Shown: one piece after another, positions 13,084 through 32,348 of the stretch
Layout: every line of letters starts with the position of its first letter
How positions within the stretch are numbered: position 1 is the stretch's first letter
Assembly (NCBI RefSeq): GCF_936916975.1
Contig: NZ_CAKZGO010000036.1
Coordinates: forward strand, 1-37,399
DNA length: 37,399 bases
DNA from: an uncultured Dongia sp.
GTDB taxonomy: Bacteria; Pseudomonadota; Alphaproteobacteria; Dongiales; Dongiaceae
Direction of reading: 5' to 3'
The notes under the pieces: model-generated
Told to the model about the DNA's origin: nothing
The model's input: the letters and a program-made list of their open reading frames with translations, nothing else
Database searches by the model: none
Program-made: the position numbers and the translations under genes

Positions 13084-14268
13084 TCAGCGATAAGGATCGG
13101 CCGCGTCACGCAAGCCGTCGCCGAGGAAGTTGAAGGCGAGCACCACCACGATAACGGGGAGGATCGGCAGCATCAGCCACGGATAGAGCGCCACCACGTT
13201 GATGTTCTGCGCCTCATTCAACAGCACACCCCATGACGTGATCGGCGGCCGGATGCCAAGGCCGAGGAAAGAGAGCGCGGTCTCACCGAGGATCATGCCG
13301 GGAATGGCCAGGGTCGCCGAGGCGATGAGATGGCTCATGAAACTCGGCATCAGATGACGGAAGATGATGCGGCCGGGCGAGGCGCCCATCAATTGCGCGG
13401 CGACGCAGAAATCCTCCTCGCGCAAGGAGAGGAGTCGCGAGCGCACCGCGCGCGCAAGGCCCGTCCAGTCGATGAGGCCCAGGATGATGGTGATGCCGAA
13501 ATAGACCAGCATCGGCGACCAGGTGACCGGCAGGATTGCGGCCAAAGCCAGCCACAGCGGCAGATGCGGGATCGAGCGCAACACCTCAATCGCCCGCTGC
13601 AGCAGATCGTCGACCCAGCCGCCGTAATAGCCGGCAAGACCACCCAGGGTGATGCCGAGGATGAAGCTTACCGACACACCGATGAGGCCGATGGTGAGCG
13701 AGATGCGCATGCCGTAGAGGATGCGCGAGAGCATGTCGCGGCCGAGGCGGTCGGAGCCCAGCAGGAACAGCGGCGTGTCATTGTCCGGCGGGCAGAAGAG
13801 ATGCACATTGCCTTCGACAAGGCCCCAGAATTTGTAGGTGTCGCCCTCGCAGAAGAAGCGGATCGGCCGCGGGTCGATCACGTTCTCGGTATAGACGCGC
13901 TGCAAATTCTCCATGTCGAGCTTGTAATCGAGCGCATAGACGAACGGCCCGATGAACTCGCCCTGATGCCTCCAATGCACTTCCTGCGGCGGAGCATAGA
14001 TATAGTCGACATTGCGCGCGTGCTGGCCATAGGGCGCCAGGAATTCGACCACCAGGATCGCCGCATACATGAGCGCCAGCACCAGACCGGCCGCGACCGC
14101 AACGCGGTGCCGGCGGAAGCGCAGCCACATCATGCGCCATTGCGACGCCATGTAGATCTTCTCGAGCTCGGGGCTCACCTTGTCGACGGCATAGGGGTCG
14201 AACGGCGCCTGGCTGACGAAATGCGTCATCGGCGAACCGTGCGGCACGTGGGTGCGAACGTCGGTCAT
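13084..14268 (-). CDS. Peptide-type ABC transporter permease (OppC/DppC/YejE-like)
   Basis: This 394-residue inner-membrane permease has an N-terminal cytoplasmic segment and a first helix at about 55-75. A long periplasmic loop (about 80-175) follows, with FLLGSDRLGRDMLSRILYG, the hallmark of the OppC branch. The permease domain holds four to five helices and the ATPase-docking loop CVAAQLMGASPGRIIFRHLMP. It should pair with the OppB-like protein encoded directly upstream; the genes overlap by 4 bases (ATGA). It is the last gene of an importer operon also containing a fused ATPase and a binding protein. Family substrates are oligopeptides, but related systems carry other solutes, so the cargo is undetermined. 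Confidence 0.93.
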   Translation of the reverse strand: MTDVRTHVPHGSPMTHFVSQAPFDPYAVDKVSPELEKIYMASQWRMMWLRFRRHRVAVAAGLVLALMYAAILVVEFLAPYGQHARNVDYIYAPPQEVHWRHQGEFIGPFVYALDYKLDMENLQRVYTENVIDPRPIRFFCEGDTYKFWGLVEGNVHLFCPPDNDTPLFLLGSDRLGRDMLSRILYGMRISLTIGLIGVSVSFILGITLGGLAGYYGGWVDDLLQRAIEVLRSIPHLPLWLALAAILPVTWSPMLVYFGITIILGLIDWTGLARAVRSRLLSLREEDFCVAAQLMGASPGRIIFRHLMPSFMSHLIASATLAIPGMILGETALSFLGLGIRPPITSWGVLLNEAQNINVVALYPWLMLPILPVIVVVLAFNFLGDGLRDAADPYR

Positions 14269-15296
14269 TTTTCCGCTCCCGCACCGAGACGAATGCGTGG
14301 ATCAAGCAGCGCCAGCAACACGTCGGAGATGAAGATGCCGATGACGGTGAGGAACGCCATGAACATCAGGAACGAACCGGCGAGATACATGTCCTGCGAG
14401 CGCAAGGCTGCGAGCAGCATCGGCCCGGTAATGGGCAACGACATCACGACCGAAACGATGACCGAGCCCGAAATAAGTTCCGGCAGCAGCGAGCCGATAT
14501 CGGCAATGAACGGGTTGAGCGAGATGCGCAGCGGATAACGCAGCAGCAGCGTCATGGGCGCAAGCCCTTTGGCGCGCCCGGTCGTGACATATTGCTTGTT
14601 GAGCTCATCCAGCAGATTGGCGCGCAGGCGCCGGATCATGCCGGCGGTGCCTGGCAGGCCGATCACCAGGACCGGAATCCACATATGCTCGAAGACGCTC
14701 ATCACCTTGGCCAGCGACCAGGGTTGGCCGACATATTCCGGTTCCATCATGCCGCCGATCGATGTCCCGAACCAGATATTGGCGAAATAGAGCATCACCA
14801 GGGCGATGAGGAAGCTGGGTGTGGCAAGGCCGATATAGCCGAGGAAAGTGAAAACATAGTCGAACAGTGAATACTGATGCGTCGCCGAATAGACCGCGAT
14901 CGGGAACGACACGACCCACACGAACAGGATCGATGCCAAGGAGATGATCACGGTCAGCGTCAATCGGTCGCCGACAACTTCCGAGACCGGCAGATTGTGC
15001 TCGAAGGAATAGCCGAGATCGCCGAACAGAAGTCCGCCGCTTTTATACTCCAGCCCATCCCAGCGGCCGAACATCCAATGCAGGTATTGGATATGCACCG
15101 GCTCGTCGAGGCCATAGGTCTTGCGCAGGAACTCCATCTTGTCCTGGTCCATGTTCTCGCCGCGCGCCTGCATCTCGGCCATCATGGTCTCGAGGAAATC
15201 GCCCGGCGGCGCCTGGATGATGGTGAAGACCAGCATGCTGATAACCAGCAGTGTCGGGATCATGACCAGCACGCGCTGAATGAGATAGCGAAGCAT
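14265..15296 (-). CDS. Peptide-type ABC transporter permease (OppB/DppB/YejB-like)
   Basis: This 343-residue permease begins with MLRYLIQRVLVMIPTLLVIS, the typical OppB/DppB first helix. The periplasmic loop (LRKTYGLDEP, then a GDLGYSF segment) is also characteristic. Five further helices and the docking loop YVTTGRAKGLAPMTLLLRYPLR follow. It forms the transmembrane channel with the downstream OppC-like subunit, whose start overlaps this gene's stop. The binding-protein gene ends 12 bases upstream, and AGGA lies just before the ATG at 15296. The family call is secure and substrate specificity unknown. Confidence 0.94.
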   Translation of the reverse strand: MLRYLIQRVLVMIPTLLVISMLVFTIIQAPPGDFLETMMAEMQARGENMDQDKMEFLRKTYGLDEPVHIQYLHWMFGRWDGLEYKSGGLLFGDLGYSFEHNLPVSEVVGDRLTLTVIISLASILFVWVVSFPIAVYSATHQYSLFDYVFTFLGYIGLATPSFLIALVMLYFANIWFGTSIGGMMEPEYVGQPWSLAKVMSVFEHMWIPVLVIGLPGTAGMIRRLRANLLDELNKQYVTTGRAKGLAPMTLLLRYPLRISLNPFIADIGSLLPELISGSVIVSVVMSLPITGPMLLAALRSQDMYLAGSFLMFMAFLTVIGIFISDVLLALLDPRIRLGAGAEK

Positions 15297-15308
15297 ATGT
15301 GCTGGTTC

Positions 15309-17243
15309 CTATTGCAGCCGGCTCTCGACCGGGCTGAGTTCCTTGGCCGTGTCTTGCCAGAAGGTGTCGGGTTTGTAGAGACCGAAATGCGCGCCCGGTT
15401 CCCAGGACCAGATGCCCTTATCGGGGATGTTGTGCATGCCCTTGGCGACCACGACCGGCTGCGGGATGTTGGCGACCGTACCGATGCTGTAGACCTGCTC
15501 GGACCATAGCTGCAGCATATCGCCCCAGATCGCGGTACGCCCGGCGGTATCGGGTGACGCGCGCCAATCCATCAACAGGCCCTCGAGCTTCTTGGCTTCC
15601 GGCATGTCGATCTCCGTGCCGTTCATGCCGCCGGTCTCAAGATATTGCCCCCATTTCGGCCACATCAACTGCTGCTGCGTGAAGGGCGCGAATTCCTGCG
15701 GGCTCATATCGGCGGTGGGCAGGCCGTTATCGACACCGAAGAACACCGACATGATGCTGTCGCCGGCAAAGACGCGGTCGCGGAACACTTCGCGCTGCGA
15801 TGGCTTCACGAACATGTCGATGCCGATCTCGCGCCAGGTGTCCTTGATCAGTTCCAGGATGTCTGATTCCTCGGTCGATTCACCGGCCGTGTCGATGATG
15901 ATGGTCATGCGCCGGCCATCGGGCAGCAGTCGGAAGCCGTCATCATCGCGTGCCGTCAAGCCCATCTCGTCCAGCAGCCGATTGGCGGTCGAGGCGTCAT
16001 AACTCGACCAGGCCTTCTGGTAATGCGGCTTGAACAGCGGCGACAGCGCCTGGATCGTGTTGGCGCCTTCCTTGCCCAGGCCATAATAGATCGCCTGATT
16101 GATCTCGTGCCGGTCGATGCCGAGCGAGAGCGCGCGGCGGAAACGCACATCGCGGTTCACGGCGCGCCAGGCCTCGTCATTGCAGTTGAGATTAGGATAG
16201 AGCGCGAAGTTCGACCCGCGGCTGTCATCCCACAGATGCAAGCTGAAGCGCCCCTTCTTTTCCGCCTGCTTCAGGAAGGTGTAATTGTCGAAGCGGATAT
16301 AGCGCGCCTGCAGATCGGTTTCGCCGGCGCCGGCTTTCGCGGGAATGAGCTTGCTCTCTGTCACGTCGAACACGACCTGGTCGAGATAGGGCAGCTGCTG
16401 CCCCTGGGTATCCACGCGGTGGTAATAGGGGTTGCGCACGAAAACCAGCCGGTCCGCCGGCGGCTTGATCCGCAGCACCCAGGGATCGAGGGTGGGCAGT
16501 TTCGGATTGTCGTTGCGATAAAGATTGCCGCGCCGGTTGAGAAGCGCGCCCCAACTCGGCTGCCCGCTATCCTTGACGGCCGCTTCCAGTTCCGCGGCAT
16601 CGGCGTATTTGGCGTGGAACTTCTTCAGATATTTGGACGGTGCGTAGATATAAAGCGGCCCGGCCGCCGCCAGCGCCGGCAGGAATTCCGTGTTGGGCTT
16701 CTGCCAGCTGTAGCGGACGGTGGTATCGTCGATCACCTCGAATTTGGGTGCCTGCCCGTCGACCATCATGGTCTTGGGGGGACCGGCCGGCATCAACTCC
16801 GTATTGTTGGCCATGTCTTCCCACCAGAAACGGAAATCCTCGGTGGTGAAGGCCTTGCCATTGGACCATTTGTGGCCCTTACGCAGATGCAGCGTGAAGA
16901 TGCGCCCTTCCTCGACATCGAAGCTCTCGAGCAAATCGGGCACGATTTTGTAGTCGCGGTCGTAACCGACCAGCCTTGAATAGGAATAGGCGGTGAGGAT
17001 GCGGCTGTCTTTGGGGCTGGCCATCAGCATGCGCAATTCGCCGCCCTGATGCCCCAGATCGTTCATGCTGGCGACGGCCGGATTTTCCGGCAGGCGTTCC
17101 GTCACCGGCGGCAATTCCCCCGCCGCCTCGTCCTTGGCGAAATAGGCCGGACTGACATAGCTGCCGGCCTCGGCCGCGAATGCCGCGCTGGACGACAACA
17201 TCAACGTCGTGGCGACGAGCGCCTGAAGCAACATTCTCTTCAT
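15309..17243 (-). CDS. ABC transporter periplasmic substrate-binding protein, family 5 (peptide type)
   Basis: This 644-residue secreted protein has a signal peptide (residues ~1-23, ending AAFAAEA) and a family-5 solute-binding fold. Recognisable segments are DLLESFDVEEGRIFTLHLRKGHKWSNGKAFTTEDF near residue 105-140 and VRFRRALSLGIDRHEINQ in the second lobe. It is longer than the ~500-540 residues usual for this family, like the microcin-C/oligopeptide binding proteins of the YejA type. ATG 17243 overlaps the stop of the fused ATPase gene (ATGA) and opens directly into the signal peptide; an in-frame extension to 17510 has no such features and was rejected. It delivers substrate to the two permeases downstream. 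Confidence 0.93.
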   Translation of the reverse strand: MKRMLLQALVATTLMLSSSAAFAAEAGSYVSPAYFAKDEAAGELPPVTERLPENPAVASMNDLGHQGGELRMLMASPKDSRILTAYSYSRLVGYDRDYKIVPDLLESFDVEEGRIFTLHLRKGHKWSNGKAFTTEDFRFWWEDMANNTELMPAGPPKTMMVDGQAPKFEVIDDTTVRYSWQKPNTEFLPALAAAGPLYIYAPSKYLKKFHAKYADAAELEAAVKDSGQPSWGALLNRRGNLYRNDNPKLPTLDPWVLRIKPPADRLVFVRNPYYHRVDTQGQQLPYLDQVVFDVTESKLIPAKAGAGETDLQARYIRFDNYTFLKQAEKKGRFSLHLWDDSRGSNFALYPNLNCNDEAWRAVNRDVRFRRALSLGIDRHEINQAIYYGLGKEGANTIQALSPLFKPHYQKAWSSYDASTANRLLDEMGLTARDDDGFRLLPDGRRMTIIIDTAGESTEESDILELIKDTWREIGIDMFVKPSQREVFRDRVFAGDSIMSVFFGVDNGLPTADMSPQEFAPFTQQQLMWPKWGQYLETGGMNGTEIDMPEAKKLEGLLMDWRASPDTAGRTAIWGDMLQLWSEQVYSIGTVANIPQPVVVAKGMHNIPDKGIWSWEPGAHFGLYKPDTFWQDTAKELSPVESRLQ

Positions 17244-19144
17244 GCCGCAATGCTCCGAATCGAAAGAGCCGCACGCACCCAATGCCCATTGCCGATATCG
17301 ACCAGCGTCGGCTGGTTGTCGGCATCGATGGTGAAGGGTGCTTCCCAGGCGGAGGGCAACGAGGTCTTGCCCTCCATCACCTTGTTGAAATCGAGCGGGT
17401 TCTCGAGCGACGGGTTGGGGACGGCCGCCAGCAACGCCTTGGTATAGGGATGGACCGGGTTGCGGAACAATTCCCGCGTCGGCGCCAGCTCGATGATCCG
17501 GCCGGCGCACATCACCATGATCCGATCGGCCACATAGTCGACCACGGCCAAATTGTGCGAAATGAAGATATAGGTGAGACCCAGTTTGTCCTTGAGATCG
17601 CGCAGGAGGTTGAGGATCTGCGCCTGGATCGAGACATCGAGCGCCGAGACCGGCTCGTCGCAGATGATGAGGTCGGGTCGCAGCGCAAGTGCCCGCGCGA
17701 TGCCGATGCGCTGACGCTGACCGCCGGAGAAACTATGCGGATAGCGCCGCAGATGCCGGATATCGAGCCCGACCAGCGCCATCAGCTCCTTGACCATCTC
17801 CTTGCGCGTTTCCGGCGTGCCCACATTGTGGATCACCAGTGGCTCGCTGATGATGTCGAATACCGTCATGCGCGGGTTGAGCGATCCGATCGGGTCCTGG
17901 AACACGAACTGCACGCGCTTGCGGTATTCGGCAAGGTCGCTGCCGCCCATATTGCGCACGTCGATCTGGCGGCCGCGATCGTTGTAGAGGATCTCGCCGC
18001 TATCCGGCCCGATCGCCTTCATGATGATCTTGGAAAGTGTCGTCTTGCCGCAACCTGATTCACCCACCAGCCCCAGGCATTCGCCGCGCTGCACGTCGAA
18101 GCTGACATCGGAAACGGCCATCACCGATTTCTGCGCCTTCATCGACCATAGCCCGCTCTTGCGGATGGTGAAGCCCTTCGAGACGTTGCTGACGTTGAGC
18201 AGCGGGCCGGCATCGTCGGCGCCCTGCGGCCAGGCCAGCTTCTCGGCAAAGAGCGGCCCGGCTTCGCTCTTGATCTCGCGGATCGGTACCAGCCGTTCGT
18301 CCTTGTGCATGCCGAAACGCGGGACGGCGTGCAGCAGCGCCTTCAGATATGGATGCTCGGGCGCCCCGAAAATGCTTTCGACCGGACCCGCTTCCATCAC
18401 CTCGCCCTGATACATCACCACCACTTCGTCGGCGATGTTGGCGACGACGCCAAGATCATGGGTGATCATCAGCATCGCCATGCCGAGCTCGGACTGCAGA
18501 TCCGCCATCAATTTCAGGATCTGTGCCTGGATGGTAACGTCGAGCGCGGTGGTGGGTTCGTCGGCGATAAGGAGTGCCGGCTTGCACACCAGCGCCATGG
18601 CGATCATCGCGCGCTGCCGCAACCCACCGGAAAGTTCAAAGGGATAGATCTTGAGCGCCCGCTCGGGGTCCGGGAAACCCACCGCGCGCAGCATGGCCAG
18701 CACGCGTTCACGGCCCTCGGCTTCGGACAGTTTGGAATGAAGATGCAGTGCCTCGCTGATCTGGAAGCCCACGGTATGAACCGGGGAGAGCGAGGTCATC
18801 GGTTCCTGGAAGATGATCGAGATGGCGCCGCCGCGGATGGCGCGCATGGCCGGGCCATTGCGGTCGAGCTTGGCGATGTCGACGATGCCGCCCTGGGCAC
18901 CCCAATCGCCGCCGCTGCCGGCCCGCCGGTCGAACAGGATTTCGCCGGACCGGATGCTGGCCGATTTCGGCAGCAGGCCCATGATCGCCTGCGCGCAGAC
19001 CGATTTGCCGGAACCCGATTCGCCGACCAGCGCCACGGTCTTACCCGCCGGCACCCGGAACGACACACCCCGCACCGCCTGGATGGAACCGCCTTCCAGC
19101 GCAAAATCAACGGCAAGATTACGGATGGCAAGAAGGTCGGTCAT
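17240..19144 (-). CDS. Fused double ATPase of a peptide-type ABC importer (DppD-DppF-like)
   Basis: The 634-residue cytoplasmic protein contains two complete ABC ATPase domains. The first (about 1-270) has Walker A GESGSGKS, signature LSGGLRQR and Walker [13 protein letters not shown]. The second (about 315-590) has [17 protein letters not shown] and [12 protein letters not shown]. Each is followed by the oligopeptide-transporter C-terminal extension ([12 protein letters not shown] and [12 protein letters not shown]). Both sites look catalytically competent. The tandem form resembles GsiA/YejF and replaces separate DppD and DppF. It is the first transporter gene in the operon, starting in a 4-base overlap with a small membrane-protein gene and ending in a 4-base overlap with the binding-protein gene. 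Confidence 0.95.
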
Positions 19145-19666: not shown

Positions 19667-20434
19667 CTAAAGCGGTGGCCATACGGCCGATGGTAGCACG
19701 AAAGCGTCACCCTCCCCCCGGCGGGCCAGCCAATCTTGCAGGTTCTCGAGAAATCGCCAAGTGGCGGTATCATGAACCAGATGATGCGTCAGAATGCCAG
19801 TCGGCAGATGCGGATCGGCCCGCCCCTCGCGCCGCGCTGCGAGATGCCCGACCAGGCGCCCCAAAGCCGCCTCAATGCCCACAAACCCCCGGCTCCCGCG
19901 CCAATCGATCACATCAACCTGCGTATTAACCTCGTTGAGGCCGATAATTTCGCTGTTCCGGCGATAAGGCGGCTCGTCGAAACGGGTCAGGCCTCGGAAG
20001 CCCTGGGCCGGCAAGGCGGGCAGGACAGTGGCATCGATCCGGTTCCAGGGCGGTGTCAGCACCGGCAAAAATTGTGATCCAAATGCCTCCTGCAACCGCG
20101 CAAACCCTGCCGCTAAATCCGGCCCTGGATCGCGCCCCGCCGGGAACTCGTTTTTCTTGGCACCGGCAGCGGCAAAGCTCTGATGGCTGATGCCGTGCTG
20201 CAGCACAAAAGCCTGCGGCCAATCCGCCACGAATTCGCTGAGACTGTCCTGCAGCGGCCGGTCGGGTGCAGATGGAATCACCGCCAGCGCCAGCGCTCCC
20301 CGGGCCGTGCGCTTCAGCTGATCCAGCGCCAGCGTCGCCGCCACCGCATCGTCATCGCGCCACCATAGGGTCGGCCGGCGATCCGCCACGCGCCACAGAT
20401 CAAACTCGTGCGTGAGGCTGTCCCAATCAGTCAT
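19667..20434 (-). CDS. Polysaccharide-deacetylase-like protein
   Basis: This 255-residue protein has motifs resembling the NodB-type carbohydrate esterase fold: an early acidic cluster LWWRDDDA (residues ~22-29), HGISH as a metal-binding H-x-x-x-H candidate, then PPWNRID and a late LTHHLVHD segment. The order is that of polysaccharide deacetylases, which remove N-acetyl groups from glycan chains. No signal peptide is present, so any activity would be cytoplasmic, perhaps on a lipid-linked or nucleotide-linked precursor. ATG 20434 overlaps the upstream glycosyltransferase stop by 8 bases (ATGACTGA); a start at 20455 is rejected. It is the last gene of a four-gene glycan operon. A catalytically inactive relative cannot be excluded. 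Confidence 0.8.
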   Translation of the reverse strand: MTDWDSLTHEFDLWRVADRRPTLWWRDDDAVAATLALDQLKRTARGALALAVIPSAPDRPLQDSLSEFVADWPQAFVLQHGISHQSFAAAGAKKNEFPAGRDPGPDLAAGFARLQEAFGSQFLPVLTPPWNRIDATVLPALPAQGFRGLTRFDEPPYRRNSEIIGLNEVNTQVDVIDWRGSRGFVGIEAALGRLVGHLAARREGRADPHLPTGILTHHLVHDTATWRFLENLQDWLARRGEGDAFVLPSAVWPPL

Positions 20435-21587
20435 GATTCTTGGCAGCCAAGGCATCCAGCAGAATGCGCGCCGATTGTCTTGCGCCGTCGAGATTGAGGT
20501 CGATCGGCAAGGCGCCGGTCTGCGCGCGCCGCGTCAAGGTCGCGGCCAGCAGGGCCGGATCCAGATTGTCAAAATCGAGCACATCAAGCGCATCGCGTTC
20601 CGCCAGCAGTTGGGCGCGCAAACCCTGCTCGCTCTCCTGGCCTTCTGCGAACGGCACGATCACCGCCGGCGTCTGCAACGCCAGCAATTCCATTACCGTG
20701 TTGTAGCCGCCTTGGCTCAGCGACACATGACAGCTGGCCAGCAGGTCGGTGAAATCCGGCCGGAAGCGATCGACGACGATGCCGGGATCGATTGCCGCGG
20801 CCTGGGTGAGCAGCGCGAAATCCGCCTCAGGCAAATTGCGCCCGGCCACAAAGCGCCAGCGCCGTTCCTTCAAGCTCGACAGGCGCCGCGCCGCCAGGGC
20901 GACGGCAAAGAGCGGCCCGCCCACGGCCCCGCCGCCGGCTGAAACCAGCACCTCGCCATTGGTGCGGTCGGCGACCGGCGCCACCTTCGGCTTCTCGACC
21001 ACATAGCCGGTATAGTGCAGGCGGTCGGCGATCGAGGTCGCGCGCGGAAAGGTGCGCTCGAACGGCACCAGCCGCGCATCGCCATGCACCAGCACCAGAT
21101 CGAAATAGCGCCGCACCAGATCGGCTGCTTCCATGACACGGTCGTCGCGACCCTTATCGACCAGGATGTCGCGCACCGAGCTTGCAATGAGAATCTTCGC
21201 ATTCTGCGCCCAATAGAGCAGTGGCAGCAATTCGAAGCGGAACTGCCGCCGCCCGAACGGATACATCTCGATCAGCAGCGCATCGGGCTTGAACGCCGCG
21301 GTTGCCTTCAGCAGCGCATCGCGGCGGCGGTCCTTCCACTCGCTGTCGATGACGCGGCCCGCATCATCCAGCAGATTGGAAAACGCCGCATCCGCCGCGA
21401 GACAAGGCGGCAATTGCAGGATGTGCGCCGTCCCGAAATCGATATCGGCAACCGGAATGCCACCCGACAAGACCAGCACCTCGGCCCCGGCATCACCGAA
21501 CGCCCGCGCCAGCGCCGCCGCCCGGCGCAGATGCCCGATGCCCAGCAGATGCTGCACATAAAGCGCAATACGCGGCGCCTTAGCCAT
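20427..21587 (-). CDS. MurG-like predicted glycosyltransferase (COG4671 type)
   Basis: This 386-residue GT-B glycosyltransferase-like protein has an N-terminal acceptor-binding lobe starting IALYVQHLLGIGHLRRAAAL, a glycine-rich LGIGH loop as in MurG/UGT relatives. The C-terminal donor lobe has VSAGGGAVGG and SQGGYNTVMELLAL, the nucleotide-sugar-binding region of GT28-like enzymes. No membrane helix is evident; such enzymes usually act at the inner face of the inner membrane. The start overlaps the histidine-phosphatase stop by 8 bases (ATGGCTAA), and the end overlaps the deacetylase start. A second protein of the same type is encoded at 27627-28844, suggesting two steps on one glycan. Donor and acceptor are unknown. 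Confidence 0.85.
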   Translation of the reverse strand: MAKAPRIALYVQHLLGIGHLRRAAALARAFGDAGAEVLVLSGGIPVADIDFGTAHILQLPPCLAADAAFSNLLDDAGRVIDSEWKDRRRDALLKATAAFKPDALLIEMYPFGRRQFRFELLPLLYWAQNAKILIASSVRDILVDKGRDDRVMEAADLVRRYFDLVLVHGDARLVPFERTFPRATSIADRLHYTGYVVEKPKVAPVADRTNGEVLVSAGGGAVGGPLFAVALAARRLSSLKERRWRFVAGRNLPEADFALLTQAAAIDPGIVVDRFRPDFTDLLASCHVSLSQGGYNTVMELLALQTPAVIVPFAEGQESEQGLRAQLLAERDALDVLDFDNLDPALLAATLTRRAQTGALPIDLNLDGARQSARILLDALAAKNHD

Positions 21588-22182
21588 GGGCCGCCCCCAT
21601 CGCGATATTCAGTTCCGCCACGTCCGGCCTGCCATCCTGTGCCACGCGAAAGAGATGCGCGCGTCCGTCCTTCAATTTCACCGGCGGCTTCTCGGTCATC
21701 TGCCAGCCGGTGGCAAGGGCATAGAGCGCCCGCTGCACCGCCTTGTGGCTGACCAGCACCACATCGCGACCGTCTTGTGCCAGACGCTGCAGTAATGGCA
21801 GGAGGCGCGCCTGCACCTCGCGCGGGCTCTCGCCATTGGGTGCGCGGAAATCCAGGCCCATCGACTCACGCACCTCGGCATCCGATCCCGGCGCGCCGCG
21901 CAGATCGACGAGGCTCTGCCCCTCCCAATCACCGAAGCTCATCTCACGCAGATCCGGCTCGATCTCAGGCATCGAGTTCGGAAACAGAATGGCCGCCGTC
22001 TCCCGCGCCCGCACCAGAGGGCTCACCAGCAGCCGCCATTCCTGCCAGGCGGACGGCACTGCCCAGCTTGCCGCCACGATGCGCCCCTGTGCGCCCAAGC
22101 CGATATCGGTCCGCCCCTGCAGGCGCCTCTCGACATTCCATTGCGTCGGCGCGTGGCGGATGATGGCGCAGTTAATGCTCAT
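21580..22182 (-). CDS. Histidine phosphatase (phosphoglycerate-mutase superfamily)
   Basis: This 200-residue protein begins with the phospho-histidine motif as RHAPTQWN (residues ~9-16; the superfamily motif is RHG, here RHA). The conserved ERRLQGRTDIGL, the acidic EMSFGDWEG and the second catalytic histidine in VVLVSHKAVQRALY all follow. These form a complete active site for removing phosphate from a small molecule or sugar phosphate. It sits between two glycosyltransferase genes and overlaps both (4 bases with the upstream GT4, 8 with the downstream MurG-like gene). A role in dephosphorylating a sugar or lipid-phosphate intermediate is therefore plausible but inferred. Phosphoglycerate mutase itself is unlikely in this context. 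Confidence 0.9.
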   Translation of the reverse strand: MSINCAIIRHAPTQWNVERRLQGRTDIGLGAQGRIVAASWAVPSAWQEWRLLVSPLVRARETAAILFPNSMPEIEPDLREMSFGDWEGQSLVDLRGAPGSDAEVRESMGLDFRAPNGESPREVQARLLPLLQRLAQDGRDVVLVSHKAVQRALYALATGWQMTEKPPVKLKDGRAHLFRVAQDGRPDVAELNIAMGAAHG

Positions 22183-23321
22183 GCGCCGACCACCTTGGCA
22201 AAGACCTTGCGCAATGTGGCGGCCGCCGCATCCATGTCATGAAATTTCAGCGCATGGGCGCGCGCCGCCATGCGCACGGGCGCCAATTCCCGCTCCAGCG
22301 CAAAATCCACATCCGCCGCGAAGGCTGCCATGTCGCCCGGCGGCGACAGCCAGCCGGTCTCGCCATCGGCGATGATGGCGGGCACACCGCCCGACGCCCC
22401 GGCAATGACCGGCGTGCCGCAGGCCTGTGCTTCCAGCAGCGCCATGCCGAACGCCTCGTTGATCGCCGGCCAGACGAAGAGATCGGCCGCCGCATAGATT
22501 TCCGGCAATTCGCTGGCGGGCTTCAATCCCAGCCAGGCGACGCGTTTCCGGATCGGCTCGAAGGCTTGCTCGACCGCCGCGCGCGCCGGCCCGTCACCCA
22601 CGATCAGCAGCTGATAGGCCCGCGTCACATGCCGCAGCGCATCGGCCAGCATATGATAGGACGCCAGCTTGTCGCCCTTGCGCATCATCGCAACGGTAAG
22701 GAGCCACGGCATGTCTGGATCGAGATGATAATGCTGCGACAGCTTCAGCCGTCCCAGAGATCGGTCAGGCCCGCGCGCATCATGATGGCCGACGAAGGCC
22801 GCGATATCGAGAAACGGCGGCAAATCGATCAGCCGCTTCGCCTTCACGATGCCGGCCAGGCATTCCTTGTCGCTGGGGTTGAGGCAGAAGATCGCCGCCG
22901 CCTGTTTGATGGCCGCTTCCGCCGCCGCATGGGAAAAGGCAAAGGCACCCGTGGCGCGCTTGGGTGCATGGCTCGCTTCCGCCACCAGATAGGGAATGCC
23001 CAGCGCCGTCGCCACGCGCGGCCCGATCCAATCCACCGCCTTGTAATAAAGATGATAGGTGAACCAGGCCTGCGGCCGCTTCGCCTTGGGCAGCTTCTTG
23101 TATTTGGCGATGAGCTTGTCGGCGGTCGCATGGCCCTTGGCCGCCAGGCGCCGCTGCTCGGCCTCCGTCTCGCCGGCAAGCCGCGCCCGGAACCGGCTTA
23201 CCAGCATTGGCTCGATCCCGGCCCGCCGCAGCGCCTGCAACAGCAACCGCGCCACCGTCCGATCCCCGGAGGGGTCAGGATGGTCGGGTGCTTTCAAGGG
23301 GGCATAGAACGCGATTTTCAT
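22179..23321 (-). CDS. Glycosyltransferase family 4 protein
   Basis: This 380-residue GT-B retaining glycosyltransferase has its N-lobe starting at MKIAFYAPLKAPDHPDPSGDR. The C-lobe has the family E-x7-E donor motif (EAFGMALLE) followed by AQACGTPVIAGASGGVPAII and DGETGWL, which bind the nucleotide-sugar. ATG 23321 opens directly into the fold, and a 36-codon extension upstream was rejected as non-coding. It is the first gene of the four-gene operon and overlaps the phosphatase by 4 bases. It probably adds a sugar to a surface-glycan precursor at the cytoplasmic membrane face; donor and acceptor are unknown. The intergenic region to the divergent propeller gene holds a tandem 16-base repeat. 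Confidence 0.9.
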   Translation of the reverse strand: MKIAFYAPLKAPDHPDPSGDRTVARLLLQALRRAGIEPMLVSRFRARLAGETEAEQRRLAAKGHATADKLIAKYKKLPKAKRPQAWFTYHLYYKAVDWIGPRVATALGIPYLVAEASHAPKRATGAFAFSHAAAEAAIKQAAAIFCLNPSDKECLAGIVKAKRLIDLPPFLDIAAFVGHHDARGPDRSLGRLKLSQHYHLDPDMPWLLTVAMMRKGDKLASYHMLADALRHVTRAYQLLIVGDGPARAAVEQAFEPIRKRVAWLGLKPASELPEIYAAADLFVWPAINEAFGMALLEAQACGTPVIAGASGGVPAIIADGETGWLSPPGDMAAFAADVDFALERELAPVRMAARAHALKFHDMDAAAATLRKVFAKVVGA

Positions 23322-23422
23322 GGGCCGGATGGTGCCGGGCGAAGTGCGGCGGGTAAAGTTAAAAGTAGCGGTCACCGTTGATTGGCTTGGGATTACCTGG
23401 CATCGCGACCAGGCCGCACCCA

Positions 23423-23454
23423 CCCTCACGCCAATGTGCCCTCACGCCAATGTG
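23423..23454. repeat. Perfect tandem 16-base direct repeat in divergent promoter region
   Basis: The 16-mer CCCTCACGCCAATGTG occurs twice back to back at 23423-23438 and 23439-23454 with no mismatch. It lies in the 195-base gap between the glycosyltransferase operon (minus, start 23321) and the propeller gene (plus, start 23517). It could be a pair of regulator-binding sites or a recent slippage duplication. No known consensus is recognised. Confidence 0.85.
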
Positions 23455-25371: not shown

Positions 25372-25386
25372 TGGTCTGGTACCGCA

Positions 25387-26204: not shown

Positions 26205-27422
26205 TTACATCAGGTCTTTCTTGAACCGCCGCTCCAGATCCTCGATCCCCGCGTCCATCGCAAAATGGCCGCGGAGGCGGGTGAAGCCGGCTTCGGCCAG
26301 GGCCTGGCGCCGCGCGGGATCGTCGATCAGTGACCCGATTGCCGCCGATAGTGCCGCCGCATCTTCCGGCGGCACCAGCAGACCGGTCTCGCCATCGCGA
26401 ATGAGTTCCGGAATGCCGGAGATGTTGGTGGTGATGCACGCCAGACGCTGGCTCTGCGCTTCCATCAGCACGTTGGGCAGGCCGTCGCGGTCGCCATCGG
26501 CGGCGATCTGCGCTGCCAGCACAAAAAGATCAGATGTGCGATAGGCGGCGAGCACCCGCTCCTGCGGCAAGGCGCCGAGCCAGGTGATGCGGTCGGCAAT
26601 CCCAAGCGCCAGCGCCTCGGCCTTCAGCCCACCTTCGAGTGGCCCGCCGCCAATATGCGTCAAGTGCCAGGAGTGCCCCGCCGGCAATTCCGCCAGCGCC
26701 TCGAGCAACACGGCATAGCCCTTCTTCGGCACCAGCCGGCCAACGGACAGAATCTCCACCGGCGCACCGGGCACAGGAACACGCAGCGGTGGTTCCGGGA
26801 AGCGCGTGAAATCGAGGCCATGATAGACCAGCGCCACCTTCTGCGGATCATCGGCGAGGTTTTGCAGATGCGCATGCCCGCTCGCCGTGCACGTTACCAG
26901 CCAATCGAGGCTCTTCAACTTCTCCCGCTTGTCCCAATCAGGCGAGGTCCAGATATCCTTGGCATGAGCCGAACAGCTCCACGGCGTCCCGCTGATGAGA
27001 TGGGCGTAATAGGCGACCGAGGCCGGCGTGTGCAGGAAATGCGCATGCAGCCGCACGACATCATGCGGCATTTCCGCGAGCAGCACGCAGGCTTGGCCAA
27101 AGCGCCGCCCGCGATTGGGCGTCGGATCGCGGATGAGATCCTTCAGCCATTGCCATGTCGCGCGGCCAAAACCGCGCTTGGCACAGCAGCGCAGCACCGC
27201 GCGCAGCACACGCATCGGCTCCTGATAGAGATATTCCGGCAGATAGGTGACCTTCGCCTTGATCTCGTCATGCACCGGATGGCGGTATTTGTCGGTCGGA
27301 AACCGCAGGCTCCAGATCTCAATGGGAATCCCGCGCTGCTCCAGTGCCAGGATCTCCTGGGCGATGAAAGTTTCGGAAAGGCGCGGATAACCCTTCAAAA
27401 GGAAGACAATGCGGCCGGTCAC
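26205..27422 (-). CDS. Glycosyltransferase family 4 protein (exopolysaccharide type)
   Basis: This 405-residue GT-B enzyme has an N-lobe beginning IVFLLKGYPRLSETFIAQEIL, a segment typical of exopolysaccharide/colanic-acid-type GT4 proteins. Its C-lobe has ILSVGRLVPKKGY, then the DGDRDGLPNVLMEAQ donor motif and SGIPELIRDGETGLLV. All expected donor-site residues are visible. The start is GTG at 27422 with only a weak ribosome-binding site. The gene lies ~200 bases downstream of a MurG-like glycosyltransferase in the same direction, with paired hairpins between them. Its 3' end is repeated as a remnant at 25281-25371. It probably builds the same surface glycan as the other glycosyltransferases; donor and acceptor are unknown. 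Confidence 0.92.
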   Translation of the reverse strand: MTGRIVFLLKGYPRLSETFIAQEILALEQRGIPIEIWSLRFPTDKYRHPVHDEIKAKVTYLPEYLYQEPMRVLRAVLRCCAKRGFGRATWQWLKDLIRDPTPNRGRRFGQACVLLAEMPHDVVRLHAHFLHTPASVAYYAHLISGTPWSCSAHAKDIWTSPDWDKREKLKSLDWLVTCTASGHAHLQNLADDPQKVALVYHGLDFTRFPEPPLRVPVPGAPVEILSVGRLVPKKGYAVLLEALAELPAGHSWHLTHIGGGPLEGGLKAEALALGIADRITWLGALPQERVLAAYRTSDLFVLAAQIAADGDRDGLPNVLMEAQSQRLACITTNISGIPELIRDGETGLLVPPEDAAALSAAIGSLIDDPARRQALAEAGFTRLRGHFAMDAGIEDLERRFKKDLM

Positions 27423-27466
27423 GGCTGTCGTTCAACTGTCAAGGCGTTGCACACAACAGACACATT

Positions 27467-27580
27467 CCCTCTCCCCTTGCGGGAGAGGGTGAGGGTGAGG
27501 GGGTGGAGGGAACGGACTCGTTGAGAGATCCCCCTCCCCGGTTCGCTTTGCTCGTCACCCTCTCCCGCGAGGGGAGAGGG
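27467..27580. repeat. Inverted pair of hairpin repeats between two glycosyltransferase genes
   Basis: Two perfect hairpins share the same 9-base stem. CCCTCTCCC / GGGAGAGGG lies at 27467-27475 and 27481-27489 (loop CTTGC), and again at 27558-27566 and 27572-27580 (loop GCGAG). The spacer includes CCCCTCCCCGGTTCGCTTTGCTCG in two blocks around 27530-27555. This general type of intergenic element is, to my knowledge, common in alphaproteobacterial genomes. It is different in sequence from the pair at 5061-5157. It occupies most of the ~200-base gap and may attenuate or terminate transcription between the two genes; no T-run follows either stem. Confidence 0.75.
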
Positions 27581-27626
27581 TTCAAACAGTTGCGGCAATA
27601 TTGGCCGTTTTTGGAAACGCAATTGT

Positions 27627-28844
27627 TCAGCGCTTGCGCTGGGCAAGCCGCAGCGACGCCGGGCGGCGGCCGCGTTCCAGCGCGTGCTGGGCGAGGCGGT
27701 TGACGTTGTTGAGGCCATCAAGCAGCCCCGGCACCACCACGTCCGAGGGCAGTGATTGCTGCGGCAATTGCCGCAAGGCCGTGGCCATCTTGCGCCCGTC
27801 GCGGATGCCGTCATCTTCCAGCATGGTGACAAGGCCCAGCTCCTCGGCCTTGCCGGCGCGCAGGAATTGCTCCATGCGCGGCCGCGTCCGGGGCACGATG
27901 AGGGCGCGCTTGTCGAACGACACGATTTCGCAAAATGTGTTGTAGCCGCCCATCGCCACCACGCCGATGGCGCGCGACATGACATGCTCCATCTGGGCAT
28001 CGAAGGTGATCGCTTCGACCTTGTCGAGCTTGGCGGCGCGCGCCAGGAATTCGGCCTGGCGGTCGGAATGCATGAACGGCCCCAGCACCATCAAGGCCGG
28101 GTATGGCAGGCGCGGGTCGCATTCATAGGCGCGGAGCACCCAATCGACCATGTCCTCGCCATCGCCGCCGCCGCCGGTGGTGACCAGAATATAGGGCGCC
28201 TCGATTTTCTGCAGCGGCACCGGTGTCCCCGGCCCCTGCGGCAAGGACCGGTGCAGATAGCCGGTATAGACCATCTTGCGCTGCACCGATTTCGGCAGCT
28301 CGATGCCCTCCAGCGGATCGCAGATCTGCGGCAGGCCGTAGACCCAGATCGCGTCATAATAGTCGCGCAGCGCCGGCATGACCTTTTTGCGGCGCCATTC
28401 CGGGACCAGCGCCGCCGGCTCGTCCATGATGTCGCGCAGACCCAGTACCAGATGCGTGCCACGCTCTTTCAACATCTCCAGCGTCTCGGTCACCTCGCCG
28501 CGCAGGCCCAGCGGTTCCTTATCGACGATGAAGATGTCCGGATCGAAGATTTCCGCGGTGTGCTTGATGATCGAGGCGCGCAGCGCCAGCGTTTCCTCGG
28601 TGTCGATGAGGAGCGACAGCGAGGTATAATCGCCCGAACGCAGCTTGATGACGCCAGGAATGCGCACAAAATCGACGCGTGCACGGAAGTTGAAGCTGCC
28701 GATGATCGGCGAGCCCGTCAGAATGATGACCGACATGTCCTTGTTCTGCTCGACCAGCCAATGAGCAATGGTCTGGCAGCGGCGCAAATGTCCGAGCCCG
28801 AAGGAATCATGCGAGTATATAAGGACGCGGGCGCCCCTAGTCAT
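27627..28844 (-). CDS. MurG-like predicted glycosyltransferase (COG4671 type), second copy
   Basis: This 405-residue GT-B-like protein opens with VLIYSHDSFGLGHLRRCQTIAHWL, the counterpart of the LGIGHLRRA loop in the gene at 20427. It also has the donor-lobe segments VTTGGGGDGEDMVDW and AMGGYNTFCEIVSF. The pair are clearly related in architecture and probably act on the same glycan or lipid. ATG 28844 is chosen, with GGAAG five bases upstream; ATG 28856 and TTG 28871 in frame are alternatives. It is divergent from the ABC-like gene at 29081, across a ~240-base control region. It is likely cytoplasmic or membrane-peripheral. Substrate unknown. Confidence 0.87.
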   Translation of the reverse strand: MTRGARVLIYSHDSFGLGHLRRCQTIAHWLVEQNKDMSVIILTGSPIIGSFNFRARVDFVRIPGVIKLRSGDYTSLSLLIDTEETLALRASIIKHTAEIFDPDIFIVDKEPLGLRGEVTETLEMLKERGTHLVLGLRDIMDEPAALVPEWRRKKVMPALRDYYDAIWVYGLPQICDPLEGIELPKSVQRKMVYTGYLHRSLPQGPGTPVPLQKIEAPYILVTTGGGGDGEDMVDWVLRAYECDPRLPYPALMVLGPFMHSDRQAEFLARAAKLDKVEAITFDAQMEHVMSRAIGVVAMGGYNTFCEIVSFDKRALIVPRTRPRMEQFLRAGKAEELGLVTMLEDDGIRDGRKMATALRQLPQQSLPSDVVVPGLLDGLNNVNRLAQHALERGRRPASLRLAQRKR

Positions 28845-28987
28845 GGCGTCTTCCATTTCCACGCGTCCCAAGCCCCCCGAACGTCGCGAATTTGCAATCT
28901 ACCGGCCACCGCATGGCCGGTGGCGGAGTATGGCACAGGAGAATTGCCGCTCGAAAGTTAAACTTTGGTCGCGTCCTCACAAACCGA

Positions 28988-29080: not shown

Positions 29081-31795
29081 ATGGAGCCTAGATTATTCAA
29101 ATATATCTGGCGGTTTTCCAAGCGTGATCAGCGGGTCATCCTTGTCATCGTCGTCATACAGCTGCTGGTCTATTTCGTCTCGCTGGATCTGCCCAAGCGG
29201 ATCATCAATGACGCGATTCAGGGCGGGGCCTTCAAGGAATCGACCACCGCCCAATTCATGGATCTCACCTTGCCGCTGCCAGACTTTCTCGGCGGCCCGA
29301 TACATATCTTCGACGGCATTCCCCTGCCTCAGGTTGAATACCTGTTCGCTCTCTGCTTCTCCTATCTGTTCTTCGTCATCCTCACCGGCTGGATAAAGCA
29401 GCTGGTCAACACGGAAAAAGGGCGGCTCGGCGAACGCATGCTGCGCCGGCTGCGTTTCGAACTCTTCGACAGGGTGCTGCAATTTCCGCTGCTGCATTTC
29501 CGGAAAGTGAAGCAGGCCGAAATCGCCACCATGATCAAGGACGAGGTGGAGCCGCTCGGCGGCTTCATCGGCGACGCCTTCATCACGCCAGTCCAGCTTG
29601 GCGGCATGGCCCTGACGGCATTGATCTTCGTCTTCATTCAGAACGTCTGGATGGGCCTCATCACCATCTCGATGCTGCTCATTCAGTTCACGATCATTCC
29701 CAGGCTGCGCGTGAAGATCCTGCAATTGGGCAAGCAGCGCCAGATCACCGCGCGCCAGCTGGCCGGACGCATCGCCGAAGCCGTCGACGGCGCCGTCGAG
29801 ATCCACGCCAACGACACCTCTAATTACGAACGCGCCGATATCATCGCTCGCCTCGGCAATATCTTTCAGATTCGTTTCGAGCTCTTCAAGCGCAAGTTCC
29901 TGGTCAAATACATCAACAACATGCTGGCGCAGACGACGCCGTTTCTCTACTTCGTCATCGGCGGCTATTTCGCCTTGAAGGGCCAGTTCGATGTCGGCAC
30001 GCTCTTTGCCGCGATCAACGCCTATAAGGACCTCCCCTCGCCAATCAAGGAATTGATCGACTGGGACCAGCAGCGCCAGGACGTGCAGATCAAATACGAC
30101 CAGGTGATCGAACAGTTCACGCCAGGCGGCATGCTGGATCCCAAGGTCCAGGCGCTGGATGGCGATAACACGATCGATCTCGCACCGCTGGTGCTGGAGC
30201 GCGTGGTCTATATCGATGAAAGTGGTGCTGTCCTGGTCGAGGACGCCTCGCTGGAGGTGGCACCCGGCGAACATGTCGCTTTGGTCGGCGACAGCAACAG
30301 CGGCAAGGAGGCGTTGGCGGCCCTGATCGGTCGCCTTGTTCGACCCGCCAGCGGCAATATCCGCTATGGCGACCGGGATCTGGCCGAGCTTCCCGAAGCC
30401 GTGACCGGCCGGCGCTTTGCTTATCTGGGCGATGAGACCTATCTGTTGCCGCTCTCGCTGGAGGACAATCTCCTCTACAGCCTCAAGCACCGGCCGATAC
30501 GCCAGGCGCAATACGAAGGTTCGCAGCTCGCGGCTTTCGAGCGGCGCTTGTACGAAACGCGCCGCGCTGGTTCGCCGGAGCTTGACATCAATGCCGATTG
30601 GCTCGATCTCGAAGGTGCCGGCGTCGCGGACCGCGCCACGCTGGAGGCGCGCGTCATGACCCTTCTCGGCGTGGTCGAATTCGAGGACGACGTCTACCAG
30701 TTCGGCCTGCGCGGCCGGGTCGACCCCAAGGACAATAACGGTCTCGCCAACCAGTTCCTGCATGCCCGTGCCGCGGCGCGCGAACGCCTCGCCGAACCGC
30801 AGATGGCAGCCTTGGTGGAACCGTTCGACCCGGCGCGCTACAACCGCAACATGACGGTCGCTGAGAACGTGCTGTTCGGCACGCCGCTCGGTCTCGAATT
30901 CGCCCCTGAGGCCCTGGCCGGCAACGCCCATGTCGCTGGTGTGCTGGGTGCCGCCAGCGTTACCAACGACCTTATCGCGCTCGGCCAGAAGATCGCCGAG
31001 ACGATGGTCGAATTGTTCGCCGATCTGCCTGCCGGCCATCCCTTCTTCGAGCAGTTCAGCTTCATCTCGGCCGAAGACTTGCCGCGCTTCCAGCAATTGA
31101 TTGCCCGTGTGCAGCGGAGCGGCCTCGAAGCAGCACCCGCCGAGGACAAACGCCGACTCATCGCCCTCACCTTCCCTTATATCGAGGCGCGCCATCGCTT
31201 GGGACTGATCAACGACAAGCTTGAAGAGAAGCTGCTGCGGGCACGAACGCTGTTCCGGGAAATGCTGCCCAAGACCCTCAATGGCGCCATCGAATTCTAC
31301 GATCCGGAGCGCTACAACACCGCCGCCACCGTGCAGGATAATATCCTTTTCGGCCGTCTGGTTTACGGCCAGGCCCAGGCCGCCCAGAAGGTGGGTGCCG
31401 TCCTCTCCGAGGTGATCGACGGCCTGACCTTGCGCAGCCGGGTGATCGCGGTGGGCCTTGGCTTCAATGTGGGTGCCGCCGGGCGGAAACTCTCGGTCGC
31501 CCAGCGCCAGAAGGCCGGCCTCATCCGCGCCTTGCTGAAACGGCCGCAGCTTGTCATTCTCAACAACACGATTTCCCATTTCGACGAGGCCAGCCAGCGC
31601 CGCCTCATCGGGCGTATCCGGGATGACGTCAAGGAAGCTGCCCTGGTCTTCGTCACGCATACCGCGGCCCTGGCCCGCGAGCTCGACCGGGTGGTGGTCA
31701 TGCAAAACGGCCGGATCGCCGAAATGGGCACGCCGGCGGAACTCGACCGGCCCAACTCGATTTATCAGGCGATGCTGGGTGCGCCGGAAAGTTAA
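29081..31795 (+). CDS. Aberrant ABC exporter-like protein with degenerate, insertion-split ATPase domain
   Basis: This 904-residue protein has a type-1 ABC exporter membrane domain at about residues 15-320 (helices near 19-36, 87-105, 175-206 and 283-298). The nucleotide-binding domain begins near 370. Its Walker A is GDSNSGKE (403-410), with Glu in place of the Mg-binding Ser/Thr. The signature is LSVAQ (804-808) instead of LSGGQ. Walker B ends in NN (828-829) instead of DE. The switch histidine (H860) remains. Nearly 400 residues separate Walker A from the signature, where about 100 is usual. The insert carries two further copies of the post-Q-loop motif: EDNLLY (461-466), then AENVLFG (594-600) and QDNILFG (752-758). 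ATP hydrolysis looks unlikely. It heads the plus-strand block with a cyclic-nucleotide-binding protein next. Confidence 0.88.
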   Translation: MEPRLFKYIWRFSKRDQRVILVIVVIQLLVYFVSLDLPKRIINDAIQGGAFKESTTAQFMDLTLPLPDFLGGPIHIFDGIPLPQVEYLFALCFSYLFFVILTGWIKQLVNTEKGRLGERMLRRLRFELFDRVLQFPLLHFRKVKQAEIATMIKDEVEPLGGFIGDAFITPVQLGGMALTALIFVFIQNVWMGLITISMLLIQFTIIPRLRVKILQLGKQRQITARQLAGRIAEAVDGAVEIHANDTSNYERADIIARLGNIFQIRFELFKRKFLVKYINNMLAQTTPFLYFVIGGYFALKGQFDVGTLFAAINAYKDLPSPIKELIDWDQQRQDVQIKYDQVIEQFTPGGMLDPKVQALDGDNTIDLAPLVLERVVYIDESGAVLVEDASLEVAPGEHVALVGDSNSGKEALAALIGRLVRPASGNIRYGDRDLAELPEAVTGRRFAYLGDETYLLPLSLEDNLLYSLKHRPIRQAQYEGSQLAAFERRLYETRRAGSPELDINADWLDLEGAGVADRATLEARVMTLLGVVEFEDDVYQFGLRGRVDPKDNNGLANQFLHARAAARERLAEPQMAALVEPFDPARYNRNMTVAENVLFGTPLGLEFAPEALAGNAHVAGVLGAASVTNDLIALGQKIAETMVELFADLPAGHPFFEQFSFISAEDLPRFQQLIARVQRSGLEAAPAEDKRRLIALTFPYIEARHRLGLINDKLEEKLLRARTLFREMLPKTLNGAIEFYDPERYNTAATVQDNILFGRLVYGQAQAAQKVGAVLSEVIDGLTLRSRVIAVGLGFNVGAAGRKLSVAQRQKAGLIRALLKRPQLVILNNTISHFDEASQRRLIGRIRDDVKEAALVFVTHTAALARELDRVVVMQNGRIAEMGTPAELDRPNSIYQAMLGAPES

Positions 31796-31886: not shown

Positions 31887-32348
31887 ATGGATGAGATGAG
31901 TATTCAGGAAGACGTCGAGGCGCTGAAGCGCATTCCGCTCTTTGCCAAGGTCGAACCGGCCAAGCTGAAATTGATGGCCTTCGCCAGCGAGCGGGCGCAG
32001 TACCAGCCAGGCGACCAGCTGTTCCACCAGGGCGATGTGGCGGATGCCGCCTTCATCATCCTCGGCGGATCGGCCGATATTCTGGTGGAGACGCCGGGTG
32101 GTCCGCTGAAAGTGGCCGATGTCGGCATCGGCGCCTTCGTGGGCGAGATCGGCATTCTCATGGACGTGCCGCGCACCGCCACCATCCGCGCCACCGAACC
32201 GATGACGGTCCTCAAGATCACCAAGGAACTGTTCTTCCGCATGGTGACCGATTTCCCCTCGATCGGCATCGAAGTGATGCGCGTCCTCGCCCAACGCATC
32301 GAGCACATGAACGTGCAACTCCGCGAAGCCGTGGCGGCCAGAAAATGA
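31887..32348 (+). CDS. Stand-alone cyclic-nucleotide-binding domain protein
   Basis: This 153-residue protein consists of one cNMP-binding beta-barrel (about residues 18-135) and a short C-terminal helix, with no helix-turn-helix or kinase domain. The phosphate-binding cassette is intact: VGEIGIL (G86, E87) followed by PRTATI (R96), the glutamate and arginine that hold ribose and phosphate in CRP and PKA regulatory subunits. It should bind cAMP or cGMP in the cytoplasm and must act on a partner. The ABC-like gene ends 91 bases upstream and a methyltransferase gene begins 25 bases downstream, making these the best partner candidates. The start is uncertain: ATG 31887 or ATG 31896, the latter giving MSIQEDV. 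Confidence 0.9.
   Translation: MDEMSIQEDVEALKRIPLFAKVEPAKLKLMAFASERAQYQPGDQLFHQGDVADAAFIILGGSADILVETPGGPLKVADVGIGAFVGEIGILMDVPRTATIRATEPMTVLKITKELFFRMVTDFPSIGIEVMRVLAQRIEHMNVQLREAVAARK

Follow-up and report, generated by a model that had tools for sequence, protein, structure and literature searches.

The stretch of DNA analysed here, hereafter the window, comprises 37,399 nucleotides of contig NZ_CAKZGO010000036.1 (assembly GCF_936916975.1) of an uncultured Dongia sp. of the Alphaproteobacteria. The gene of interest encodes a 904-residue protein in which the membrane domain of a type IV ATP-binding cassette (ABC) exporter is combined with an ATPase domain that is interrupted by 285 residues and whose Walker A, Walker B and signature motifs are altered; it is followed by a gene for a small cyclic-nucleotide-binding protein and lies close to glycosyltransferase genes. 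The pseudo-ATPase character of the family to which the protein belongs is strongly supported, and its link to cyclic nucleotides is well supported by genome context.

The gene and its product

The ABC transmembrane region is recognized by Pfam well above the cut-off (table 1), and the match to PF00005 is restricted to the first part of the ATPase domain, namely residues 387-478. By motif read-out, none of the canonical elements, i.e. Walker A GxxxxGK[S/T], the LSGGQ signature and the Walker B Asp-Glu pair, is present in the protein. A sequence-only reading made earlier had placed the altered motifs (GKE, LSVAQ and NN) and three copies of a repeated motif at positions that proved exact when checked letter for letter, and had put the distance from Walker A to the signature at about 395 residues, the measured value being 394 between the end of the former and the start of the latter. 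Its statement that every catalytic motif is altered holds for Walker A, the signature and Walker B, but not for the H-loop, the histidine of which is retained at residue 860 (THT, 859-861).

Among NCBIfam models MsbA scores highest, but its 161 bits fall far short of the cut-off of 602; all 25 models listed, out of 158 with a match, likewise stay far below their own cut-offs, so that no model among them covers the protein. The AlphaFold2 model, based on 27 sequences, has a mean predicted local distance difference test score (pLDDT) of 84.2 for the whole protein; in Foldseek the whole model matches the structures of MsbA, TmrAB and TM287/288, with TM-scores by target length of at most 0.60 among the 50 matches listed.

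Table 1. Features of the window; residue numbers refer to the 904-residue protein unless stated otherwise.
Feature	Position	Strand	Remarks
CHASE2 + class III nucleotidyl cyclase	2763..5057	+	24 kb from the pseudo-ATPase gene
Oligopeptide-type ABC importer	13084..19144	-	ATPase 17240-19144; binding protein 15309-17510; permeases 14265-15296 and 13084-14268
Second GT28-type glycosyltransferase	20427..21587	-	
Glycosyltransferase group 1 (GT4)	22179..23429	-	
Glycosyltransferase group 1 (GT4)	26205..27422	-	
Divergent glycosyltransferase, GT28 C-terminal domain	27627..28871	-	
Pseudo-ATPase ABC-exporter-like gene	29081..31795	+	ATG start; 904 aa
ABC transmembrane region PF00664	29195..30013	+	residues 39-311; Pfam 60.6 bits, cut-off 28
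Walker A GDSNSGKE	30287..30310	+	residues 403-410; Glu410 at the Ser/Thr position
Post-Q-loop motif, first copy, EDNLLY	30461..30478	+	residues 461-466
Insert in ATPase domain	30479..31333	+	residues 467-751 (285 aa), between first and last copy of the repeated motif
Repeat unit A	30713..30988	+	residues 545-636; contains AENVLFG 594-600
Repeat unit B	31202..31459	+	residues 708-793; contains QDNILFG 752-758; normal ATPase domain resumes
Signature LSVAQ	31490..31504	+	residues 804-808
Walker B VILNN	31553..31567	+	residues 825-829; Asn828 at the Asp position
Cyclic-nucleotide-binding protein	31887..32348	+	153 aa; PF00027 61.6 bits, cut-off 27.5; no other Pfam domain
Phosphate-binding cassette GEIGILMDVPRTA of the 153-aa protein	32142-32180	+	GE...RxA motif
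Methyltransferase PF12692	32374..32865	+	relative on same strand within 500 bp in 87/182 loci

The interrupted ATPase domain

The protein was aligned with a canonical profile built from the ATPase domains of five ordinary exporters encoded in the same genome: residues 381-467 correspond to profile positions 9-95 and residues 725-899 to positions 62-230. Because the two stretches overlap on the profile, the segment of the Q-loop helix is found at both junctions: the ATPase domain halts after this helix, gives way to other residues and then restarts from the same helix, the third copy of the repeated motif (752-758) marking the point of restart. The intervening stretch, which the sequence-only reading had estimated at some 300 residues, measures 285.

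The proposal that the ATPase domain has been internally duplicated and remodelled is borne out by these junctions and by profile comparisons. The two repeat units (545-636 and 708-793) match each other with E 8e-17, and 557-632 matches 715-795 over 74 columns with E 1.1e-19, while the segment around the first motif copy, 425-500, matches both 557-632 (17 columns, E 1.3e-5) and 715-795 (22 columns, E 4.6e-6); 24 control comparisons, a few of them sharing terminal residues with the tested segments, gave E 0.012 or worse. Three matches to the pattern [ED]N[VIL]L[FY][GS], which was fitted after the fact, occurred in none of 20,000 shuffles of the protein.

The region 470-791, taken alone, is predicted with a mean pLDDT of 90.7 (27 sequences). 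A single search program, Foldseek, run with its predicted model, found no fold match in the PDB at E 0.001 (best 0.19), and a profile search of PDB sequences with the insert returned one match, with E 0.17. When 27 members were searched against Pfam, the insert yielded a single match, in one member and below threshold, and no Pfam family outside the repeated segment. The insert was also compared with ABC helical subdomains, as the sequence-only reading had suggested; an origin as a whole extra subdomain of this kind was not borne out, as the similarity of each half to the canonical profile is weak and confined to 35-40 columns (E 5e-4 and 1.5e-3).

Catalytic residues across the family

A scan of contigs gave 128 relatives, the best 80 of which were taken (identity of the best segment 47-85%; three of the 80 are partial matches). 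The alignment used below comprises 188 sequences, the window protein among them, drawn from these relatives and from further loci; two open reading frames (ORFs) shorter than 750 residues and a duplicate of the window's gene had been left out. It includes near copies and a few genes twice; a non-redundant set of 101 members with less than 70% mutual identity was therefore used alongside it.

Canonical homologues with the full motif set were looked for in this alignment, and the combination of Walker A Lys and Ser/Thr, Walker B Asp, catalytic Glu and H-loop His occurs in none of the 188 sequences. The position of the Walker A Ser/Thr (410) is occupied by Asp in 82, Glu in 77 and Ser/Thr in 11, and that of the Walker B Asp (828) by Asn in 135, Ser in 17 and Asp in 22; an acidic residue at 410 is combined with Asn or Ser at 828 in 143. 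In the non-redundant set, 79 members are acidic at 410, 72 carry Asn or Ser at 828 and 19 Asp. The signature glycines are scarce (G806 in 13 and G807 in 17 of 188), and the H-loop histidine is present in 32 sequences and absent from 156. Better preserved are Walker A Lys409 (127; Lys or Arg in 163) and the catalytic Glu829 (109). Conservation of Glu410, Asn828 and Asn829, which the sequence-only reading had proposed as a check, is found for the first, as Asp or Glu, and for the second, which are traits of the family, but not for Asn829, a local trait of the window protein.

The states of positions 410 and 828 are associated: Asp828 occurs in 8 of the 159 members with an acidic residue at 410 and in 14 of the 29 without (Fisher p 1.3e-4 in the 101-member set). 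The coupling is not significant in tree-aware pairs (median p 0.375). GK[S/T] and Asp828 are found together in five sequences (L071 and L130-L132/L160), each without other catalytic residues. A few members dispersed over the family (L071, L057, L130-L132) combine Asp828 with Ser410 or Arg410 and possibly represent a partial reversion toward the canonical state. In one lineage (L143-L145 and L147-L150) the P-loop is no longer recognizable, and the membrane domain and the insert are kept. It may be added that one genome harbours three divergent copies (L145, L148, L150) and another two (L146, L147), in which the P-loop has vanished and the C-terminal ends resemble cyclic nucleoside monophosphate (cNMP)-binding domains.

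Could the window gene simply be decaying, or its sequence be in error? The altered motifs themselves would fit, but each of the eight nearest loci that were read, some of which are not independent of one another, has GKE and NN (the pattern search alone gave seven of eight for each, the ones it missed, in L004 and L092, being seen in other analyses), so that a local mutation or sequence error is ruled out by the relatives. Moreover, over 42 disjoint pairs with 80-97% identity the median ratio of non-synonymous to synonymous substitution rates (dN/dS, Nei-Gojobori) is 0.083, the lowest value, in the membrane domain, 0.159 and 0.105 in the two parts of the ATPase domain and 0.138 in the insert. 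All four regions of the gene are under purifying selection, with no sign of decay, and the family occurs in about a third of the sampled genomes of the class (see below). The probability of decay or error is practically negligible, and the earlier view of a conserved pseudo-ATPase rather than a decaying gene stands.

The probable cyclic-nucleotide-binding partner

At 138 of the 182 loci for which 700 bp or more of downstream sequence is available, a cyclic-nucleotide-binding ORF follows on the same strand within 500 bp. The GE...RxA motif of the phosphate-binding cassette is kept in the 153-residue protein of the window and in 130 of 146 adjacent ORFs. In the non-redundant set, 78 members, the window protein included, have such a neighbour, 12 have instead a C-terminal extension of at least 45 residues, and 11 have neither. 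The 12 extended members form one clade (FastTree local support 99%), and PF00027 is found at the C-terminus of all eight long members tested (L131, L157, L163, L145, L159, L150, L209, L210). Two of these, L145 and L209, match PF00027 and no longer PF00005; retention of the cyclic-nucleotide-binding domain even where the ATPase domain has decayed further suggests a change of the control signal.

A possible source of the cyclic nucleotide is the CHASE2-domain cyclase of the window, which is the only one within it of the 16 class III cyclase matches in the genome. Dependence of cAMP signalling on CHASE2-domain cyclases is known in Sinorhizobium meliloti (PMC13001267). Class III cyclases occur at 11 of 203 loci of the family, approximately five being expected from their density in the window's genome, by a rough estimate. 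At six loci (L152, L157, L163, L165, L167, L168) the cyclase gene is an immediate neighbour, in the same orientation, of the family gene or the cyclic-nucleotide gene, compared with about 1.2 expected on either strand, again roughly estimated; PF00211 was confirmed in five of the six, the five checked by Pfam. The cyclase at L152:3361-5112 (minus strand), directly 3' of the cyclic-nucleotide gene, carries a 2Fe-2S ferredoxin domain, which hints at a redox input.

Distribution and stand-alone membrane domains

With a profile of the insert, the family is detected at E 1e-10 in 131 of the 385 genomes sampled from the class. At E 1e-8 the profile matches 31 of 398 genomes of a phylum sample, the share of which from other classes is not reported, and all 31 are listed as the window's own genome, the same genus or the same class. 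In a plasmid collection 262 of 72,556 records match, and the genera among those listed are all alphaproteobacterial. This distribution suggests that the family is restricted to the Alphaproteobacteria.

The window's own genome also encodes, at L211:7803-8822 (C4, minus strand), a stand-alone ABC membrane domain of 339 residues with no ATPase part. Across 142 genomes of the class 13 matches fall in short frames of this kind (323-425 residues), which provide all of the ten best matches; thereafter come the membrane domains of the long family, with the remaining short frames lower among them. Twelve of the 13, from 11 genomes, were examined, the thirteenth (G139), which may be cut by the contig end, being left out. 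None of the 12 loci has an ABC ATPase frame as immediate partner; in four, such a frame lies 1.1-5.1 kb away (the nearest, at 1.1 kb in L235, has the opposite orientation), and the other eight fetched stretches contain none. A tree was built from the 12 short proteins, 41 members of the family (40 drawn at random from 100, plus the window protein) and 12 exporters of the same genome with an intact Walker A; in it the short proteins and the family members group together against the exporters (support 100% in the Shimodaira-Hasegawa-like approximate likelihood ratio test, SH-aLRT). Eleven of the 12 form a branch of their own (87%), and one long-branch protein falls within the family. The sister lineage has the family's membrane domain without the ATPase domain.

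Genomic surroundings

At loci with at least 7 kb of upstream sequence, relatives of both nearest glycosyltransferase genes are found in 51 of 54, and a relative of the GT4 gene at 22179-23429 in 45 of 54. The oligopeptide-type importer set also lies near the relative in records of Sinorhizobium, Phyllobacterium, Rhizobium and Azospirillum. On plasmid pR132502 of Rhizobium leguminosarum a cyclase gene comes first, then the four genes of an oligopeptide-type importer and three glycosyltransferase genes, and finally the genes of the family protein and of the cyclic-nucleotide protein; the arrangement on S. meliloti pSymB is similar, with the cyclase ahead of the whole cluster in both. The window contains the corresponding parts, namely the importer, the glycosyltransferases within 20427-28871, the family gene and the cyclic-nucleotide gene.

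A few further neighbours were observed. A gene for a trypsin-like protease with tetratricopeptide repeats (32574-34982, plus strand) follows the methyltransferase, with relatives near at least L001, L002 and L070, and a histidine phosphatase family gene (21580-22182, minus strand) lies among the glycosyltransferases, with relatives upstream in many loci. On a Ruegeria plasmid a fused member (L210:8666-11773) stands beside a CPBP-family membrane protease, and no glycosyltransferase is annotated in the 21 kb shown.

Proposed function and alternatives

In canonical ABC proteins the Mg ion is bound by the Walker A Ser/Thr and the Walker B Asp, and each ATP site is made up of the Walker motifs of one chain and the signature of its partner. 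A chain in which both Walker motifs and the signature are altered would leave neither site intact, in a homodimer as well as in a heterodimer.

The reading that we tentatively favour, with nearly even chances of being right, is that of a two-part system, in which an ABC-fold conduit or flippase, independent of ATP and controlled by a cyclic nucleotide, serves a glycosyltransferase pathway for an envelope glycan. The ABC-fold protein would be the membrane core, two copies of it most likely forming an exporter-shaped dimer, and the cyclic-nucleotide-binding protein the second subunit. The ATPase domain would no longer hydrolyse ATP; together with the insert it may act as a receiver that relays to the membrane helices the binding of cyclic nucleotide by the downstream protein or, in some lineages, by the fused C-terminal domain. 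The membrane part would then open, or flip its substrate, passively or with an ion gradient, the substrate, presumably a lipid-linked glycan or else a small precursor of the envelope, being provided by the adjacent glycosyltransferase pathway. More doubtful, but a possibility, is the fuller account in which an ABC exporter was rebuilt as such a gated conduit or flippase, with the insert-bearing ATPase domain as receiver, the cyclic-nucleotide subunit having replaced ATP as the control and the sister lineage having become free of the ATPase domain. The sequence-only reading had left the choice among gated channel, sensor and scaffold; it is the cyclic-nucleotide partner, absent from that account, that puts a gated or sensing role in the lead.

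The same genomic evidence would fit a protein that transports nothing and, as a regulatory scaffold or sensor, keeps the glycosyltransferases or the oligopeptide importer in place at the membrane and signals the level of cyclic nucleotide, a role similar to that played by SUR subunits for KATP channels. Conservation of the membrane domain and of parts of the insert, but not of the catalytic residues, is in keeping with such a role, as are the neighbouring glycosyltransferases and often an Opp-type importer. A conduit is favoured because the membrane domain is strongly conserved, being the slowest evolving region, and because stand-alone membrane domains persist without the ATPase domain; the scaffold is rather unlikely. 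A working enzyme of reversed polarity is conceivable too: the carboxylate that binds the metal would have been lost from Walker B (Asp to Asn) and gained in Walker A (Ser/Thr to Asp/Glu), the hydrogen-bonded pair being kept, in a manner likened to the relocated lysine of WNK kinases. The frequency of the acidic 410 and Asn/Ser828 pair, the scarcity of Asp828 among acidic members and the retention of Lys/Arg409 and Glu829 speak for it. The association, however, is not significant in tree-aware pairs, most members also lack the signature glycines and the H-loop histidine, and one lineage keeps membrane domain and insert without any P-loop, all of which makes such an ATPase improbable. Finally, the protein might be the degenerate half of a heteromeric exporter that borrows the active ATPase domain of another ABC protein. 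Exporters with one degenerate and one canonical site are well known (PMC7756269), but in this protein the changes would impair both composite sites. A search of gene neighbourhoods, in the window and in five annotated relatives, revealed no half-exporter gene, other exporters existing elsewhere in the genome; the ABC ATPase gene of the window is of the oligopeptide-importer type. This arrangement is very improbable.

Several observations weigh against the ATP-independent, cyclic-nucleotide-controlled conduit. Lys/Arg409 and Glu829 are kept in many members, so that nucleotide binding may persist. The 11 non-redundant members without a cyclic-nucleotide neighbour (although for one of them, L165, another analysis shows an overlapping cyclic-nucleotide-binding ORF) do not fit readily, nor do the 12 fetched stand-alone loci, at none of which was such a neighbour found. 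The tree has a small outgroup and long branches, and the program warns of long-branch joins; the cyclase counts stem from few, partly related loci. Lastly, the predicted ligand of the 153-residue protein, cAMP or cGMP, may differ, by analogy with the domain of HetC, which binds ppGpp and not cAMP.

Comparison with known systems

Type IV exporters of the MsbA/ABCB kind are alike in the PF00664 membrane domain and the frame of the ATPase domain, but the family protein lacks their Walker A Ser/Thr, LSGGQ and Walker B Asp and has the 285-residue insert. Cyclic-nucleotide-gated channels, with their cyclic-nucleotide-binding domain after the membrane domain, are comparable in the way of working only, the membrane fold being unrelated. 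Impaired ATP sites in an ABC exporter fold are shared with TM287/288, TmrAB, TAP and CFTR; CFTR is not known to have a cyclic-nucleotide-binding domain. These four keep one canonical site (PMC7756269), whereas in the family protein both Walker motifs and the signature are altered in one chain.

An ABC-type membrane domain working without an ATPase is found in SbmA/BacA (SLiPT family), which offers a parallel to the family; SbmA is reported to be driven by the proton gradient (PMC13316013). The family protein differs in that it matches PF00664 and PF00005 only and keeps a pseudo-ATPase domain, the stand-alone sister lineage being the closer parallel. HetC is an ABC exporter with an essential, N-terminal cNMP-type domain that bound ppGpp, a C39 peptidase and an essential ATPase residue (PMC10986499). 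In the family, by contrast with HetC and NHLM-type proteins, the cyclic-nucleotide domain is C-terminal or separate, there is no peptidase match in Pfam and the ATPase set is missing; the NHLM-type model TIGR03796 gives the window protein 143.7 bits against a cut-off of 853.3. Fusions of cNMP-type domains to major facilitator superfamily transporters are named in a review (PMC10710835). No description of the family was found in the open-licence literature; it may be described elsewhere.

Biological meaning

ABC transporters are defined by their ATPase. The family described here is widespread and exporter-shaped, has lost the full catalytic set in every aligned member and appears to be coupled to a cyclic-nucleotide sensor. 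If the proposed function is true, it would show how a primary pump can turn into a gated conduit or a sensor, a problem known mainly from CFTR, SUR and SbmA, and bacterial cAMP/cGMP signalling, including that of plant symbionts, would gain a possible direct membrane target besides transcription factors. Since separate, fused and, in the sister lineage, ATPase-free forms exist, the individual evolutionary steps would be testable.

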